Source: Chloroflexota bacterium (GTDB lineage: Bacteria; Chloroflexota; Dehalococcoidia; SZUA-161; SpSt-899). From it: a DNA stretch of 35,378 nucleotides. Position 1 is the stretch's first letter. Every line of letters starts with the position of its first letter. Shown here piece after piece: positions 10,593-35,378 of this stretch. The position numbers and the translations under genes are program-made. The notes under the pieces are model-generated. The model saw nothing but the letters and a program-made list of their open reading frames with translations. It was not told where the DNA came from and did no database searches. Where the stretch lies: contig JABMQN010000193.1 of NCBI GenBank assembly GCA_013203045.1, positions 1 to 35,378 of the forward strand. Reading direction: 5' to 3'.

Positions 10593-10936
10593 AGCTATTC
10601 AGATTAGATCGACCTTCATAATGCTCGCTCTAATAGCAACCTTCCGAATTGGTATTGGTAGACACCATAAATCAGTGTCTGCCAGACAGACATAGCCCGC
10701 TAGTCTACCATAGCGTATCAATATTTATTTCCTGCTGAAAACATGGTTAACCCCCAACTTGTTTGGGAGCTATCACGCAATGATGATTAAAATCTGTTTT
10801 GACGATGAATAGAATGGTATGATAGATTGCGAAATATCTGTGAGTGGGTTGCCAGTGAGGTTTTGGAACTGATTTGAGACTTTAAAACTGTAGCTGGTTT
10901 TCAGTTATGCCAGCGCATGTGAAAGGATCACATACA

Positions 10937-12071
10937 ATGATTGCCAAACAGATAAGTGAAATCACCCCGTTCCTTGTTATGGACGTGCTCGAACGGGCGC
11001 GTGCCATGGAACGTGAAGGTGCTCATGTAATGCACCTGGAAGTAGGTGAACCTGATTTTGCCGTTCCGCAATGTGTAAAAGAAGCAGCCTGCAGAGCTAT
11101 TGAAGAGGGCCATACCAATTATACTCATAGCCTTGGCAATTTCGATTTGAGAGAATCTATCTGCAGGCACTACTTCGATGCGTACAATGTAAAGGTTTTC
11201 CCTGATCAAGTGGTGATTACTTCAGGTACTTCACCTGCCATGCTGCTTATTTTTGCAGCGCTCATTGACAAAGGTGATCAGGTGATTATCTCCAATCCTC
11301 ATTATGCATGCTATCCTAATTTCATCCGATTTATGCAGGGAACTCCGGTTATGGTGCCTGTTTATGAAGAAGACGGGTTTCAGTACCGGACCGAGGAAAT
11401 CGGGCGAAAGATTACCACTGGCACCAAAGCGATTATTATCAACTCACCATCAAACCCAACAGGCAACTTGCTATCCGAAAACAGGATGAGGGAGATTGCT
11501 GAATTGGCACCATATGTCATTTCAGATGAGATTTATCACGGGCTTGTCTATGAAGGAAAAGAGCACTCTATTTTGGAGTTCACTGACCATGCATTCGTGT
11601 TAAACGGTTTTTCAAAATTATATGCCATGACCGGACTTCGACTTGGGTACATTATTGCGCCGGAGCCGTTCATTAGACCAATTCAGATACTTCAGCAGAA
11701 CTTCCTCATTTCTGCTAATTCTGTGGTTCAAATTGCGGAAATAGCAGCACTTGAAGAAGCCGGTGAGGACGTGCGACGCATGAGAGGTGTCTATGATCAG
11801 CGAAGACGATACATGACGCCTCAGAGAAATTGGGTTTGGGATTACAGTTGAACCTACTGGAGCGTTTTACGTGTTCGCAAACGCAAGGCACCTGTCAAAC
11901 GATTCGTACAAACTTGCTTTTGATATTTTGGAGAAATGTCATGTAGGGGTGACTCCCGGCATTGACTTTGGGGCCAATGGAGAGGGGTACCTCAGGTTCT
12001 CATATGCAAACTCGATGGAGAATATCACCGAAGGCCTGAACAGGATAGAATCCTTTGTCAATAACCCGTGA
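10937..12071 (+). pseudogene. Class I/II PLP-dependent aminotransferase with a frameshift near 11816
   Basis: Frame 2 (10907/10937..~11816) gives SNPHYACYPNFI, SPSNPTGNLL and NGFSKLYAMTGLRLGY; homologous coding continues in frame 3 as RLREIGFGITVEPTGAFYVFANARHL...YLRFSYANSMENITEGLNRI. Genuine frameshift or assembly error. Confidence 0.85.
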
Positions 12072-12171
12072 AATAAACCATCTTCGTTTCTATTGTGTCA
12101 GTGTGGTGGGAACACGTTTAAGCCGCGATTAGCAACTATATGAGTCTCGCGGCATATGTTATACTGTCTGT

Positions 12172-28600: not shown

Positions 28601-29413
28601 CTAACCCAGGCCGAGACCAACCCATCGCCTCTTTCGTTTATAGTGCTTTATTTCCCGGTAACTCTTTCTCTCTCCTGACGACCCAATTCCCAGGTAGAAT
28701 TCTTTTACATCGTCGTTGTTGACCAAGTCGGAAGATGGGCCTTCAAGAACGATTCTGCCAGTCTCCATTATATAGGCATAGTCGGAGATAGAAAGAGCGG
28801 CCCTTGCGTTCTGCTCCACCAGAAGTATGGATACTTTTTCCTCTTTGTTAATTCTGTTTATTATGCCGTATATTTCTTTTTGCAGGAGGGGGGCAAGACC
28901 CAGTGAAGCTTCATCGATCATAACAATTGTAGGGTGTGCCATGAGAGCACGTCCCACCACTAACATCTGTTGCTCACCACCAGAAAGGTATCCACTGGTC
29001 TGGTTACAAAGCGTTTCCAAGACGGGGAAATAACCGTAAACCATATCCAGGTCTTGTTTTGTATTTGAGTTGCGTCCTAGTACGTATGCTCCGGCTTTCA
29101 GGTTTTCTTCTACGGTAAGGTGCTCCAGGATTTTCCTTCCCTCCAGCACCTGGATTATTCCCTGTTTAGCGATTTCCTCAGGATCACCGTTATCTATCCT
29201 TTGCCCTTTATATTCAATACCACCCTCAGTTACTCTGCCGTCTTCTGCTTTGAGCAGTCCTGAAATCGCTTTGAGAGTGGTAGACTTGCCGGCTCCATTA
29301 CTTCCCAATAAAGAAATAATGCGACCCTCATCCAGTCTCAATGAGATACCTCTTAATACAAGGATAACACCCATGTATTTAACTTCTATGTTTTCCAAGC
29401 TCAGCAATGCCAT
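28601..29413 (-). CDS. livF: Branched-chain amino acid-type ABC transporter ATP-binding protein (LivF family)
   Basis: LLGSNGAGKSTTLKAISGL Walker A; QVLEGRKILEHLTVEENL; YLSGGEQQMLVVGRALMAHPTIVMIDEASLGLAP. Confidence 0.88.
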   Translation of the reverse strand: MALLSLENIEVKYMGVILVLRGISLRLDEGRIISLLGSNGAGKSTTLKAISGLLKAEDGRVTEGGIEYKGQRIDNGDPEEIAKQGIIQVLEGRKILEHLTVEENLKAGAYVLGRNSNTKQDLDMVYGYFPVLETLCNQTSGYLSGGEQQMLVVGRALMAHPTIVMIDEASLGLAPLLQKEIYGIINRINKEEKVSILLVEQNARAALSISDYAYIMETGRIVLEGPSSDLVNNDDVKEFYLGIGSSGERKSYREIKHYKRKRRWVGLGLG

Positions 29414-29445
29414 CCGTTAGCCTCCAAAGTTAGATGGTAATATAA

Positions 29446-30549
29446 CTACTCGCCTAAATAGGCCTTGATAACTGCCGGGTCACGTTTCACTTCATCGGGA
29501 ACACCCTCTGCGATCGTCCGCCCGAAGTCAAGTACCACAAGCCTATCGGTAATGTCCATAACCACACCCATATCATGCTCGATGAGCACGATAGCCATCC
29601 CGGTTTCTTCCTGTACGTCCAAAATGAATCTGGCCATGTCCTCTTTTTCGTCAACGTTCATCCCTGCCATCGGTTCATCAAGTAGTAGTAGTTTGGGCTT
29701 TTGAGTCAAGGCTCTTCCCAGGTCGATTCTCTTCCGCAATCCGTATGGTAAAGCTCCAACCGTTGTCTTTCTATAAGGCTGTATTTCCAGGAATTCTATT
29801 GTTTCCTCTACCGCTTGACGATGTTTGATCTCCTCGTGATGTGACCGGCCGAAGTAAAGTGCGTCTTCAACAAAGTTTGATTTGAAATGGAGATGCCTGG
29901 CAGCCATCAGGTTGTCAACGGTACTCAGTCCGGTATATAGCTGAATATTCTGGAATGTTCTGCCTATACCAAGCCGGGCAATTTGATCCGGAGGGATTGG
30001 TGACTCCAGGTGGCGTAAAACCAGCATGAAAATAATCAAGCCGGGAAGACATAGAGCTATGACGGCTAAGACAAAATAGATGCTGAAGGAACCACCAGTA
30101 AGTAAGTAAAAAATTCCAGAGATAAGACCGCTTGTTAGAATGGCTCCGAAGTACGAACTTGCCCGCGCCCAACCAGATAATTTCTTGGTAGGTGGAGTTC
30201 CGGGTATCCACGCCGATGTCTTAAAAACGGAGTGTAATAATCCAATAAGGAAGAGAACATAAAGAGGACCGCAAAATATAAAAGATAATGTTAAAACAAA
30301 CATCAAACCCTTAAGAGAGAGCTGCTTATCAGGTTTTCTAAGCCGTTGTCCCTCGAAAGTGATTTCTCCCATCTCAGGGTTGTAGAAACCGTTAATGCAG
30401 TTGAGCATGGATGTTTTACCTGCGCCGTTGGGTCCGATAATTGAAAGGATTTCCCCTTCTCTAACATCGAAGCTCACGCCAGCAAGAGCTGTAACACCGC
30501 CAAAGGTTAGGTTAATGTCCTTGACTTCTAATAGCTTGGGCCTTTCCAT
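29446..30549 (-). CDS. livG: LivG-family ABC transporter ATP-binding protein with a hydrophobic insertion
   Basis: NLTFGGVTALAGVSFDV, IIGPNGAGKTSMLNCINGFY Walker A; after the insert LGIGRTFQNIQLYTGLSTVDNLMAARH; LLLLDEPMAGMN; IVLIEHDMGVVMDITDRLVVLDFGRTIAEG. Confidence 0.88.
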   Translation of the reverse strand: MERPKLLEVKDINLTFGGVTALAGVSFDVREGEILSIIGPNGAGKTSMLNCINGFYNPEMGEITFEGQRLRKPDKQLSLKGLMFVLTLSFIFCGPLYVLFLIGLLHSVFKTSAWIPGTPPTKKLSGWARASSYFGAILTSGLISGIFYLLTGGSFSIYFVLAVIALCLPGLIIFMLVLRHLESPIPPDQIARLGIGRTFQNIQLYTGLSTVDNLMAARHLHFKSNFVEDALYFGRSHHEEIKHRQAVEETIEFLEIQPYRKTTVGALPYGLRKRIDLGRALTQKPKLLLLDEPMAGMNVDEKEDMARFILDVQEETGMAIVLIEHDMGVVMDITDRLVVLDFGRTIAEGVPDEVKRDPAVIKAYLGE

Positions 30550-30686: not shown

Positions 30687-31937
30687 TTAAGTTGTAGTGT
30701 GCAGCAATTCCCGAGCTAATGTTTTTTCTTCTTCTAAATTTGATATTTTTTTGTCAAGCCTGGCTGCGTGCAGCGCCCATAGTACTTGTCCTACTCTTTT
30801 CCCTTTAATTATACCCATATTTTGCAGGTCCTCGCCACTTAATACAGGCTTTACATAACGTAACTTCTTAAGGTAGATTTCAAGTCTTTCTTGAATAACG
30901 GGCGAATCAGAAGCAGTAGCAGTAGACATAACGGTCTCTGGGGCATGACATTGCAGGTTAAGGTATATATCGCTTGGATGAATATCTGCTTTATCTAAAT
31001 GGGAAATCGATTGTTTGATTCGAATAGTATCTCTCAATGCGCGTGCAGCCCACCCTGGCATCTTCAGTCGCGTGATGCAGCTTTCGGTTTCTTCATTGCT
31101 GAGTCGATAGCACAATAGCGAAAGATAGATCGAGGGGAGTGAGAGCGATTTATCATCGAGATCACGGGCCTGGTCAAATTTCTCTGCCAGCCATTCATCA
31201 CCCTTCACTGCAGGATGTAGTTGTTGAAGCACTCCGAGTTCGTCAGCGCGTTTTAGGGTTTTTTCAGGGTACTCTTCTTGCAGGATCATTTCCAGTTCGC
31301 GCCACAGACGCTCTCCCGTAACCGTATTGAGTTTACCCGGATGATTCCGAATTAACCTTTCTGTTTCTTGTTCCAACCGAAATCCGAGACGCTGTTCATA
31401 GCGCAGAGCACGAAGAATGCGGGTAGGGTCATCGCTAAAGCTACCTGGATGCAGTATCCGCACTAGTTTGTGTTGCAGATCGTTTTGTCCCCCATGTGGG
31501 TCGAGTAGTTCGCCGAACGAGTCTGGATTCAGGTGGACGGACATGGCATTGATGGTGAAGTCACGCCTGGCAAGATCGTCCCCAATAGTGCCTCTTTCAA
31601 CTGTAGGAAGTGCGCCTGGTCGTGAATAAGTTTCAAGGCGTGCCGTAACCAGATCGAGACTGAAATCTTCCCAGGAGAGCTTGGCTGTGCCAAAACGAGG
31701 ATGCTTTCTGATTTTCCAATCCTTGGTTTCAGCCAGTTGTTGAGCCAGCGAAATTGCCTTACCTTCGATAACAACATCAAGATCGTGATTGGGTCGTTTA
31801 AGAATGGCATCGCGTACCACACCACCCACAAGATATGAGTTTTCTCCCCTCGCTAAAGCTGTTTCACCGATTTCTCGTAGGAGGTCTACAAGTCCTTGAG
31901 GTAGCTGCGATGTAAGTTTTTCAGATATGTTAGCCAA
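30687..31937 (-). CDS. CCA tRNA nucleotidyltransferase / poly(A) polymerase family
   Basis: SYLVGGVVRDAILKRPNHDLDVVIEGKAISLAQQLA; RRDFTINAMSVHL; LLDPHGGQNDLQHKLVRILHPGSFSDDPTRILRALRYEQRLGF. Confidence 0.93.
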   Translation of the reverse strand: MANISEKLTSQLPQGLVDLLREIGETALARGENSYLVGGVVRDAILKRPNHDLDVVIEGKAISLAQQLAETKDWKIRKHPRFGTAKLSWEDFSLDLVTARLETYSRPGALPTVERGTIGDDLARRDFTINAMSVHLNPDSFGELLDPHGGQNDLQHKLVRILHPGSFSDDPTRILRALRYEQRLGFRLEQETERLIRNHPGKLNTVTGERLWRELEMILQEEYPEKTLKRADELGVLQQLHPAVKGDEWLAEKFDQARDLDDKSLSLPSIYLSLLCYRLSNEETESCITRLKMPGWAARALRDTIRIKQSISHLDKADIHPSDIYLNLQCHAPETVMSTATASDSPVIQERLEIYLKKLRYVKPVLSGEDLQNMGIIKGKRVGQVLWALHAARLDKKISNLEEEKTLARELLHTTT

Positions 31938-33051: not shown

Positions 33052-35378
33052 ATGATGAAAGACTATAACGAAAAAACGTTTGATATTGAAATGAGAGATT
33101 TAGAGCCAGACGTGGGTTCTTCTCACACGGTAGTAGAACGCACTGACGAGTTAGCATATATGAATGAGCAACTTCAGGAAGAAATCGCAGAGCGGAAACG
33201 TATCAAGGAAGCGTTAGAGAAGAGTAGGGCAAGCTTCCGCAGCATCGTTGAAAACAATGCTGATGGCATCATCATTGTAAATCATGAAGGCATCGTACGT
33301 TTCGTTAACACTACGGCGAAGCAGGTATTTGGTGGTGCGGCGGGTGAACTGGAAGGACGGCCCTTTGGTTTGGCTGAAGCAGAAGATGGAGTGGTTGAAA
33401 TCGACATTGTCTGTGAAAACGGGGAACCAGGCACAGGTGAAATACGGATTATGTCCACAGAATGGGAGGGGCAAGACGCTACCCTAGTACTGATTCGTGA
33501 TGTCACAGATCGCAAACAAGCTGAAGAACTACTTCGGTTGGCAGAAGAAAGATACAGAACCGTGTTCGAGAATTCCGCTGTCGGTATAACCGTAACTGAT
33601 GAGAATGAGAATATCGTTGCCTGGAACAAGTTCGCTGAGAACCTTCTGGGAATGGATAAGAATGAACTGTACATGAAACCTGTAAAGTCTCTCTATCCGG
33701 AAGAGGAGTGGAGAAATATAAGATCGCACGATATCAGGCAAAAGGGTATTCAGCATCAGTTAGAGACCAGGCTGATTAGAAAGAATCCCGATAGAATTTT
33801 AGATATTGCCCTCTCGGTAAGTATGATTAAAGGAACCGACGGACAAATAATTGGTTCGATCGGGATTATTGCGGATATTTCTGAACGCAAAAAGATAGAA
33901 AACGATTTGCAACAGTTTTATGCCGGACTGGAACTGACAGTATTAGAACGCACTGATGAGTTATCAAATGCCAACGAGCAACTCCGGGAGGAGATTGAGG
34001 AGCGGACGCGAACTGAGGAGGCGTTGGAGAAGAGTAGAGCAAGCTTCCGCAGCATCGTCGAAAACAATGCTGATGGCATCATCATTGTAAATCATGAAGG
34101 CATCGTACGTTTCATCAACACCACGGCAAAGCAGGTATTTGGGGGAGCGGCTGATGAGTTGGAAGGACGGCCGTTTGATCTGGCTGAGGCAGGAGATGAG
34201 GCAATAGAAATCGACATTGTCTGCAAAAACAGGGAGCCAGGTACAGGTGAAATACGGATTATGCCCACAGTATGGGAAGGGCAAAACGCTGGCCTGATAC
34301 TGATTTGTGATGTCACAGATCGCAAGCAGGCAGAAGAACTACGTCGGTTGGCTGAGGAAAGATACAGGACCGTGTTTGAGAATTCCGCTGTCGGTATAAC
34401 CGTAACTGATGAGAATGAGAATATAGTTACCTGGAACAAGTTTGCAGAGAATCTCCTGGGGATGGATGCGTATGACCTGCACATGAAACCGGTCAAATCT
34501 CTCTATCCGGAAGAGGAGTGGAGAAATATAAGATCGCACAACATTAGACAAAAGGGTATACAACATCAGATAGAAACCAAGATCATCAGAAAGAATCCTG
34601 ATGGCATTATGGATGTTGCCCTTTCGGTAAGTGTGATCAAGGGAACCGACGGACAAATAATTGGTTCGATTGGTGTAATGGCAGATATCACGGAGCGCAA
34701 ACGGGTAGAGGAGATACGTGAAAGACTCACCAGCGAGCTCGAAGAAAAGAACAAGGAAATGGAACAGATCATCTACGTAACCTCACATGACTTCAGGTCA
34801 CCTCTGGTGAACATAAAGGGCTTTAGCATGGAATTGGAACGTTCAATTGAAGATATGACTTCGATATTGCAGAATTCAGAGCTTTCATCAGAAGTGTGGG
34901 ATGGACTGTCACCAATCGTTGAAGAGGATATTCCGGAAGCGCTTCAATTTATACAGTCAAGCATACCAAAGATGGAAACCCTACTGAATGGACTTTTAGA
35001 AGTTTCCAGGGCTGGAAGAACAGAGCCCGAATTTGAAGAGTTAGATATGAATGGGCTGTTGCAAGAGGTCAAAACTCCGTTTGAACATGTGATAAGAGAA
35101 GGAGGCGTACAGGTAAAGATCGGCCATCTCCCCAGTTGCATGGGTGATAAGGGGCATATAAATCAGGTATTTTCTAATCTTTTAGGTAATGCGTTAAAGT
35201 ACCTTGATCCGTCGAGACCCGGAATTATCCAAATCACTGGCCAAAAGGATACGGACAAGGTGATTTACTGTGTTGAAGACAATGGGATTGGAATACCTGA
35301 TGAGCACAAAGAAAAGGTGTTTCAGATGTTCCATCGTATAGATACGGAGGTTACTACGGGCGAAGGATTGGGATTAAC
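33052..35378 (+). CDS. Sensor histidine kinase with four PAS-like modules (two PAS-PAS repeats) - HisKA - HATPase_c, truncated by the window end
   Basis: Manual translation from ATG 33052 stays open to the window end: MMKDYNEKTFDIEMRDLEPDVGSSHTVVERTDEL...YVTSHDFRSPLVNIKGFSMEL...QVFSNLLGNALKYLDPSRPG...VEDNGIGIPDEHKEKVFQMFHR. Absent from the ORF track, presumably because no stop lies inside the window. Confidence 0.93.
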   Translation, partial: MMKDYNEKTFDIEMRDLEPDVGSSHTVVERTDELAYMNEQLQEEIAERKRIKEALEKSRASFRSIVENNADGIIIVNHEGIVRFVNTTAKQVFGGAAGELEGRPFGLAEAEDGVVEIDIVCENGEPGTGEIRIMSTEWEGQDATLVLIRDVTDRKQAEELLRLAEERYRTVFENSAVGITVTDENENIVAWNKFAENLLGMDKNELYMKPVKSLYPEEEWRNIRSHDIRQKGIQHQLETRLIRKNPDRILDIALSVSMIKGTDGQIIGSIGIIADISERKKIENDLQQFYAGLELTVLERTDELSNANEQLREEIEERTRTEEALEKSRASFRSIVENNADGIIIVNHEGIVRFINTTAKQVFGGAADELEGRPFDLAEAGDEAIEIDIVCKNREPGTGEIRIMPTVWEGQNAGLILICDVTDRKQAEELRRLAEERYRTVFENSAVGITVTDENENIVTWNKFAENLLGMDAYDLHMKPVKSLYPEEEWRNIRSHNIRQKGIQHQIETKIIRKNPDGIMDVALSVSVIKGTDGQIIGSIGVMADITERKRVEEIRERLTSELEEKNKEMEQIIYVTSHDFRSPLVNIKGFSMELERSIEDMTSILQNSELSSEVWDGLSPIVEEDIPEALQFIQSSIPKMETLLNGLLEVSRAGRTEPEFEELDMNGLLQEVKTPFEHVIREGGVQVKIGHLPSCMGDKGHINQVFSNLLGNALKYLDPSRPGIIQITGQKDTDKVIYCVEDNGIGIPDEHKEKVFQMFHRIDTEVTTGEGLGL
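33131..34710 (+). repeat. Intragenic tandem duplication, period 810 nt (copy 1 ~33131-33900, copy 2 ~33941-34710)
   Basis: E.g. aagcttccgcagcatcgt at 33231 and 34041; gagaatgagaatat..gtt.cctggaacaag in both copies; constant 810-nt offset. Confidence 0.92.

Follow-up and report, generated by a model that had tools for sequence, protein, structure and literature searches.

ABC importer ATPases are regarded as soluble proteins that only the coupling helices of the permease hold in place. The locus described here raises the question of whether the nucleotide-binding domain (NBD) of such an ATPase may carry a hydrophobic element of its own and, if so, whether that element serves any purpose. It lies in a stretch of 35,378 nucleotides (the window) from an uncultured bacterium, presumably one of the Chloroflexota, that encodes a LivG-type ABC ATPase, in which the original prediction had placed an insertion of ~105 aa between Walker A and the Q-loop. 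This insertion is borne out in the assembly as an in-frame, hydrophobic segment of 112 aa, and the interval first proposed for it (30001-30321) agrees within a few codons with the one obtained by alignment (29998-30333). A literature search for transmembrane inserts in LivG or in NBDs returned nothing relevant. ABC ATPases with soluble or coiled-coil inserts inside the NBD are known, as in UvrA and Rad50. NBD1 of CFTR contains a regulatory insertion, a soluble element inside the NBD that leaves the fold intact (PMC3776845). All these NBDs, that of the window LivG included, are interrupted without loss of the fold, although the inserts of CFTR NBD1, UvrA and Rad50 are soluble or coiled coils, whereas that of the window LivG is hydrophobic.

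The LivG-type ATPase and its inserted loop

The gene, its motifs and its partner are arranged as follows:

29446..30549, minus strand: LivG-type ABC ATPase with insert, 367 aa, open frame with no internal stop
30409..30435, minus strand: Walker A, GPNGAGKTS, aa 39-47; residues 39-45 invariant in a 41-sequence alignment
29998..30333, minus strand: insert, aa 73-184, 112 aa (336 bp), extra relative to the aligned LivG relatives, stop-free and in frame
29947..29961, minus strand: Q-loop, RTFQN, aa 197-201; F199, Q200 and N201 invariant in the 41-sequence alignment
29707..29751, minus strand: ABC signature region, LPYGLRKRIDLGRAL, aa 267-281, conserved among relatives
29671..29691, minus strand: Walker B, LLLLDEP, aa 287-293; D291, E292 and P293 invariant
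29572..29583, minus strand: H-loop, IEHD, aa 323-326; H325 invariant
28601..29413, minus strand: LivF partner ATPase, 270 aa, no insert; PF00005 in one stretch, best families NF008626 LivF and UrtE (about 189 bits)

All NBD motifs of the 367-aa protein are kept in their order (Walker A, Q-loop, signature, Walker B, H-loop), and no catalytic motif is split by the insert. Pfam matched PF00005 (ABC_tran) in two stretches and PF12399 (BCA_ABC_TP_C) at the C-terminal tail, with 44.7 bits against a cut-off of 25.5. The best NCBIfam family is LivG (NF008449, 247 bits), below its curated cut-off of 362 bits, and for this reason the protein is named LivG-type rather than a LivG equivalog; insert-free LivG genes of the same genome also stay below that cut-off (261 bits at best), so the low score is not caused by the insert. 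An AlphaFold2 model built with 41 LivG sequences gives the NBD mostly pLDDT values >90, and the best Foldseek match of the modelled NBD is the archaeal LivG MJ1267 (1g6h, E 7.8e-20). With the LivG/MJ1267-type ATPases of HAAT importers (PF00005 plus PF12399; PDB 1g6h) the protein shares the fold, the NBD motifs, the BCA_ABC_TP_C tail and an adjoining LivF; it differs from them in the 112-aa hydrophobic insert before the Q-loop, in the lack of adjacent LivH, LivM and LivK, and in its score under the NF008449 cut-off.

The insert occupies a surface loop that leads from the GxIxFxG strand to a short PPDQIAR helix just before the Q-loop, and its C-terminal end reads RHLESP, followed by IPPDQ. It stretches the spacing between Walker A and RTFQ to 149 residues. 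Among 105 LivG-like genes surveyed, this spacing is 37 residues in 100, while values of 25, 38, 40, 80 and 149 occur once each; only the last two exceed 41 residues, and both genes belong to this genome. The coding strand of the insert is T-rich (38% T, 19% A). Between aa 76 and 181 there are six Lys or Arg and not a single acidic residue; the basic residues stand before the first hydrophobic helix, between the first and the second and after the third, with none between the second and the third. On the Wimley-White octanol scale three segments qualify as hydrophobic (aa 84-102, 133-151 and 158-176), and they coincide with three helices in the model:

30217..30315, minus strand: hydrophobic helix 1, aa 79-111, mean pLDDT mostly 72-75, octanol value -15.0 (aa 84-102); central Gly-Pro and Lys at both ends
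30100..30174, minus strand: hydrophobic helix 2, aa 126-150, pLDDT about 61-67, octanol value -7.8 (aa 133-151)
30007..30081, minus strand: hydrophobic helix 3, aa 157-181, pLDDT about 75-81, octanol value -13.1 (aa 158-176)

AlphaFold2 places these three long helices outside the NBD, with lower confidence than the NBD itself and with pLDDT <50 in the first linker, and draws helix 1 unbroken. Of the three to four transmembrane (TM) segments first counted, three are found by both hydropathy and modelling, but no fourth.

Relatives with and without an insert

The closest comparison comes from G001, a genome of the same genus, in which a syntenic LivG lies behind the same upstream genes and has no insert. 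The synteny is marked by the following neighbour, common to both genomes:

30687..31937, minus strand: CCA-adding tRNA nucleotidyltransferase-like gene, upstream of LivG, named from reading the sequence

The two flanks of the window LivG match the G001 orthologue with 79% and 88% identity. Since both match one orthologue, this is one gene, interrupted in this lineage, and the absence of the insert from the syntenic orthologue makes the insertion lineage-specific. An in-frame insertion as a real event is well supported in the assembly, short of reads. Four paralogues of the same genome (on C138, C117, C213 and C199) also have no insert. The sixth LivG gene of the genome does have one:

G000:C155:41477-42254 (L122) plus the end of G000:C58 (L118): second LivG with a 43-aa hydrophobic insert in the same loop; the gene starts on C58

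Two of the six LivG genes of this genome, compared with none of about 100 relatives, therefore carry a hydrophobic insert at the same loop. Absence of the insertion from all homologs, which the original prediction had named, together with read evidence of a chimera, as counting against it, is found among the orthologues, but within the genome a comparable insert is present in this second LivG. Its insert, ARTFHKGKQRRLEWGAVSAGLAGYVVLGPLIGLNLGIWLRDRW, widens the Walker A-to-RTFQ spacing to 80 residues. It resembles that of the window LivG in being hydrophobic, in its position, in its Gly-Pro centre and in the basic residues on both sides; it differs in its length of 43 aa, in having one hydrophobic segment, in belonging to a full operon and in a direct repeat at its left edge. 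This repeat is an imperfect copy of Q-loop DNA (14/18 positions, reached in about 0.3% of shuffles). At the window insert no target-site duplication was found, an apparent PDK/PDQ repeat being no better than chance. Homology between the two inserts is not supported, since block shuffles reach such a score in about 20% of cases. Loci retrieved from other genomes with the C155 LivG have normal spacing wherever they are readable; matches of its insert within the phylum, at first suspected to be further insert-bearing LivG proteins, turned out to be MFS-like membrane proteins or chance.

The operon of the second LivG is complete (LivK-LivH-LivM-LivG-LivF, split over C58 and C155). This gene content shows that a LivG with an insert can exist alongside both permeases of a full pair. 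The suggestion that the insertion replaces part of a permease interface is not upheld, because no permease family matches the insert and the second insert-bearing LivG sits beside full LivH and LivM. A LivM-LivG fusion was also discarded, PF02653 (BPD_transp_2) being absent from both the protein and the insert. The second gene lifts the finding in the window above a curiosity, and two independent-looking inserts in one loop of one genome, together with an insert-free orthologue in a sister species as a control, make the question testable.

Membrane tether or neutral insertion

The reading that we tentatively prefer, at a little short of an even chance, is that of a recent, lineage-specific in-frame insertion into a tolerant loop, which may tether the LivG ATPase to the membrane. 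The 336-bp insertion would have lengthened the loop between the GxIxFxG strand and the PPDQIAR helix of a working LivG ATPase, leaving the NBD intact and adding to it a three-helix extension that is hydrophobic and carries basic charges only. The extended loop would enter the membrane and hold the LivG/LivF pair beside whichever LivH/LivM permease this pair serves. The NBD can fold only if the insert begins and ends on the cytoplasmic side, which rules out three spanning helices in the folded protein. Both this requirement and the charges are satisfied if helices 2 and 3 form a spanning hairpin and helix 1 is re-entrant or in-plane: helix 1 would be kinked at its Gly-Pro, with basic residues on both sides, and the hairpin would leave both halves of the NBD in the cytoplasm. 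The charge distribution of the insert fits such an in/in topology. Translation, membrane insertion, topology and any benefit of the insert are all inferred.

The tether reading is supported by the continuous 367-aa frame with all NBD motifs, by the insert that a second LivG carries in this loop and by the state of the NBD, which looks constrained from its comparison with G001 (dN 0.08, with synonymous sites saturated). It is weakened by the missing codon periodicity, by a hydrophobicity driven by composition, by the odd number of helices and by a helix 1 that is unbroken in the model, and further by the lack of known homologues of the insert, by the orphan state of the LivGF pair and by the absence of significant similarity between the two inserts. 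The earlier idea that the insertion anchors the ATPase to the membrane is possible, although the same compositional findings weigh on it and three spanning helices would separate the NBD halves across the membrane unless helix 1 is re-entrant. If true, a motif-intact NBD with a hydrophobic element beside the Q-loop would show that the ATPase can be tethered or regulated through this loop. It is a doubtful further step that the LivG ATPases of this lineage have repeatedly acquired membrane-embedded elements before the Q-loop, which would make them membrane-tethered importer ATPases with TM helices interrupting the NBD itself.

The main alternative, quite conceivable if somewhat on the doubtful side, is a neutral or decaying insertion, in which T-rich DNA of non-coding character would have entered a spare, orphan LivG in frame, at a loop that tolerates it, being hydrophobic only by way of its T-rich codons and having no membrane function. 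It is supported by the coding character of the insert, which has no codon periodicity in any frame: a chi2 as low as its 7.4 occurs in 3% of coding windows of the same length and in none of 57 windows from membrane-protein genes, and the C155 insert likewise falls in the lowest 4%. So little periodicity is unlike a sequence that has long been coding and points to a recent origin from DNA that lacked coding character. Moreover, three TM-like segments appear in 43% of the stop-free dinucleotide shuffles of the insert DNA, so that a membrane function cannot be read from hydrophobicity alone; the hydrophobicity of the insert is a by-product of its T-rich base composition once the frame is open. 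The lack of homologues, the orphan LivGF locus and a slightly higher number of changes on the branch of the window gene (11 positions changed in the window gene only and 5 in G001 only, with 19 at which all three sequences differ) also favour neutrality. Against it, 112 codons have been kept open (only 0.9% of the shuffles are stop-free), every NBD motif has been kept and a comparable insert occupies the same loop of a second LivG, in a complete operon. Even if neutral, the insert pair would still mark an unusually tolerant site in an ABC NBD. Of the mechanisms compatible with the data, tethering is the most specific; it is our first choice, with a neutral or decaying insertion close behind.

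Assembly, other origins and surrounding genes

An assembly or binning artefact, with a foreign fragment wrongly joined into the LivG gene, is considered unlikely. The record is a 277-contig assembly, the second LivG is broken into two contigs whose ends share an exact overlap of 74 nt shortly before its 43-aa insert, and the window also contains an aminotransferase gene with a frameshift. However, the two flanks belong to one orthologue, the reading frame runs through both joints without a stop, and the insert DNA was found neither in G001 nor elsewhere in this genome, which leaves no repeat to explain a mis-join. What speaks most against a lone accident or an error of assembly is the second gene, with its insert at the corresponding structural position.

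Capture of a fragment from the gene of a polytopic membrane protein is very unlikely. It would account for two weak resemblances: that of the insert to a large membrane protein, read as DUF2298-like, which a single distant genus has in two genomes (E 2.5e-5 per genome, 36% over 58 aa), and that between the C155 insert and MFS-like proteins (E 3e-4 per genome, 47% over 43 aa). These E-values are per genome, over about 400 genomes, and together with the hydrophobic composition this puts the matches near chance; in addition, no Pfam family matches the insert and codon periodicity is lacking in every frame. No reliable relative of the insert protein was found in 393 genomes of the class or 399 of the phylum, in a pattern scan of GTDB genomes, in viral contigs, plasmids or phages, or in Pfam, NCBIfam, PHROGs or PDB sequences. 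Scarcely credible is a second product starting at Met82, which would join three TM segments to the C-terminal part of LivG. The sequence at the start of the insert (TTAAGGGTTTGATG, 30304-30318, minus strand, with a Shine-Dalgarno-like TAAGG five bases before the in-frame ATG of Met82) and a charge pattern suited to a three-TM N-out/C-in topology would speak for it, but such a product has no Walker A, the N-terminal part of the NBD is conserved and in frame with the remainder, and a five-base match of this kind is common by chance.

Rfam has no family above cut-off in the insert and its RNA fold is not unusually stable (z-scores 0.02 and 0.07), so it is no known intron; a group I or II intron or another structured RNA element is thereby not supported. 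Nor is an intein, given that no Hint family is present (Pfam, NCBIfam) and that the C-terminal His-Asn before Cys, Ser or Thr typical of inteins is missing.

LivG and LivF (28601-30549, minus strand) form an orphan pair between the CCA-adding-enzyme gene and gyrB, with no adjoining permease or binding protein. In the nearest named relative (L038) the order is AMP-synthetase-LivH-LivM-LivK-LivG-LivF, whereas the window locus holds only LivG-LivF. Two permease domains of the LivH/LivM type are encoded at G000:C191:35020-36977, and an ABC_tran search of that contig listed no convincing ATPase; these permeases are a possible partner for the orphan pair. Matches of the insert on the same contig were rejected, as they lie antisense to MttB-like genes.

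Two further genes of the window have unusual structures. The aminotransferase gene (10907-12075, plus strand) is frameshifted near 11815, its C-terminal part (RLREIGFGITVEPTGAFYVFANARH...) lying in another frame, which reflects either a sequence indel or a pseudogene. A sensor histidine kinase-like ORF (33052-35376, plus strand, 775 aa) that runs off the window contains a block of PAS-like repeats twice in nearly identical form, at about residues 60-170 and 330-450, which looks like the result of an internal duplication spanning about 800 bp.
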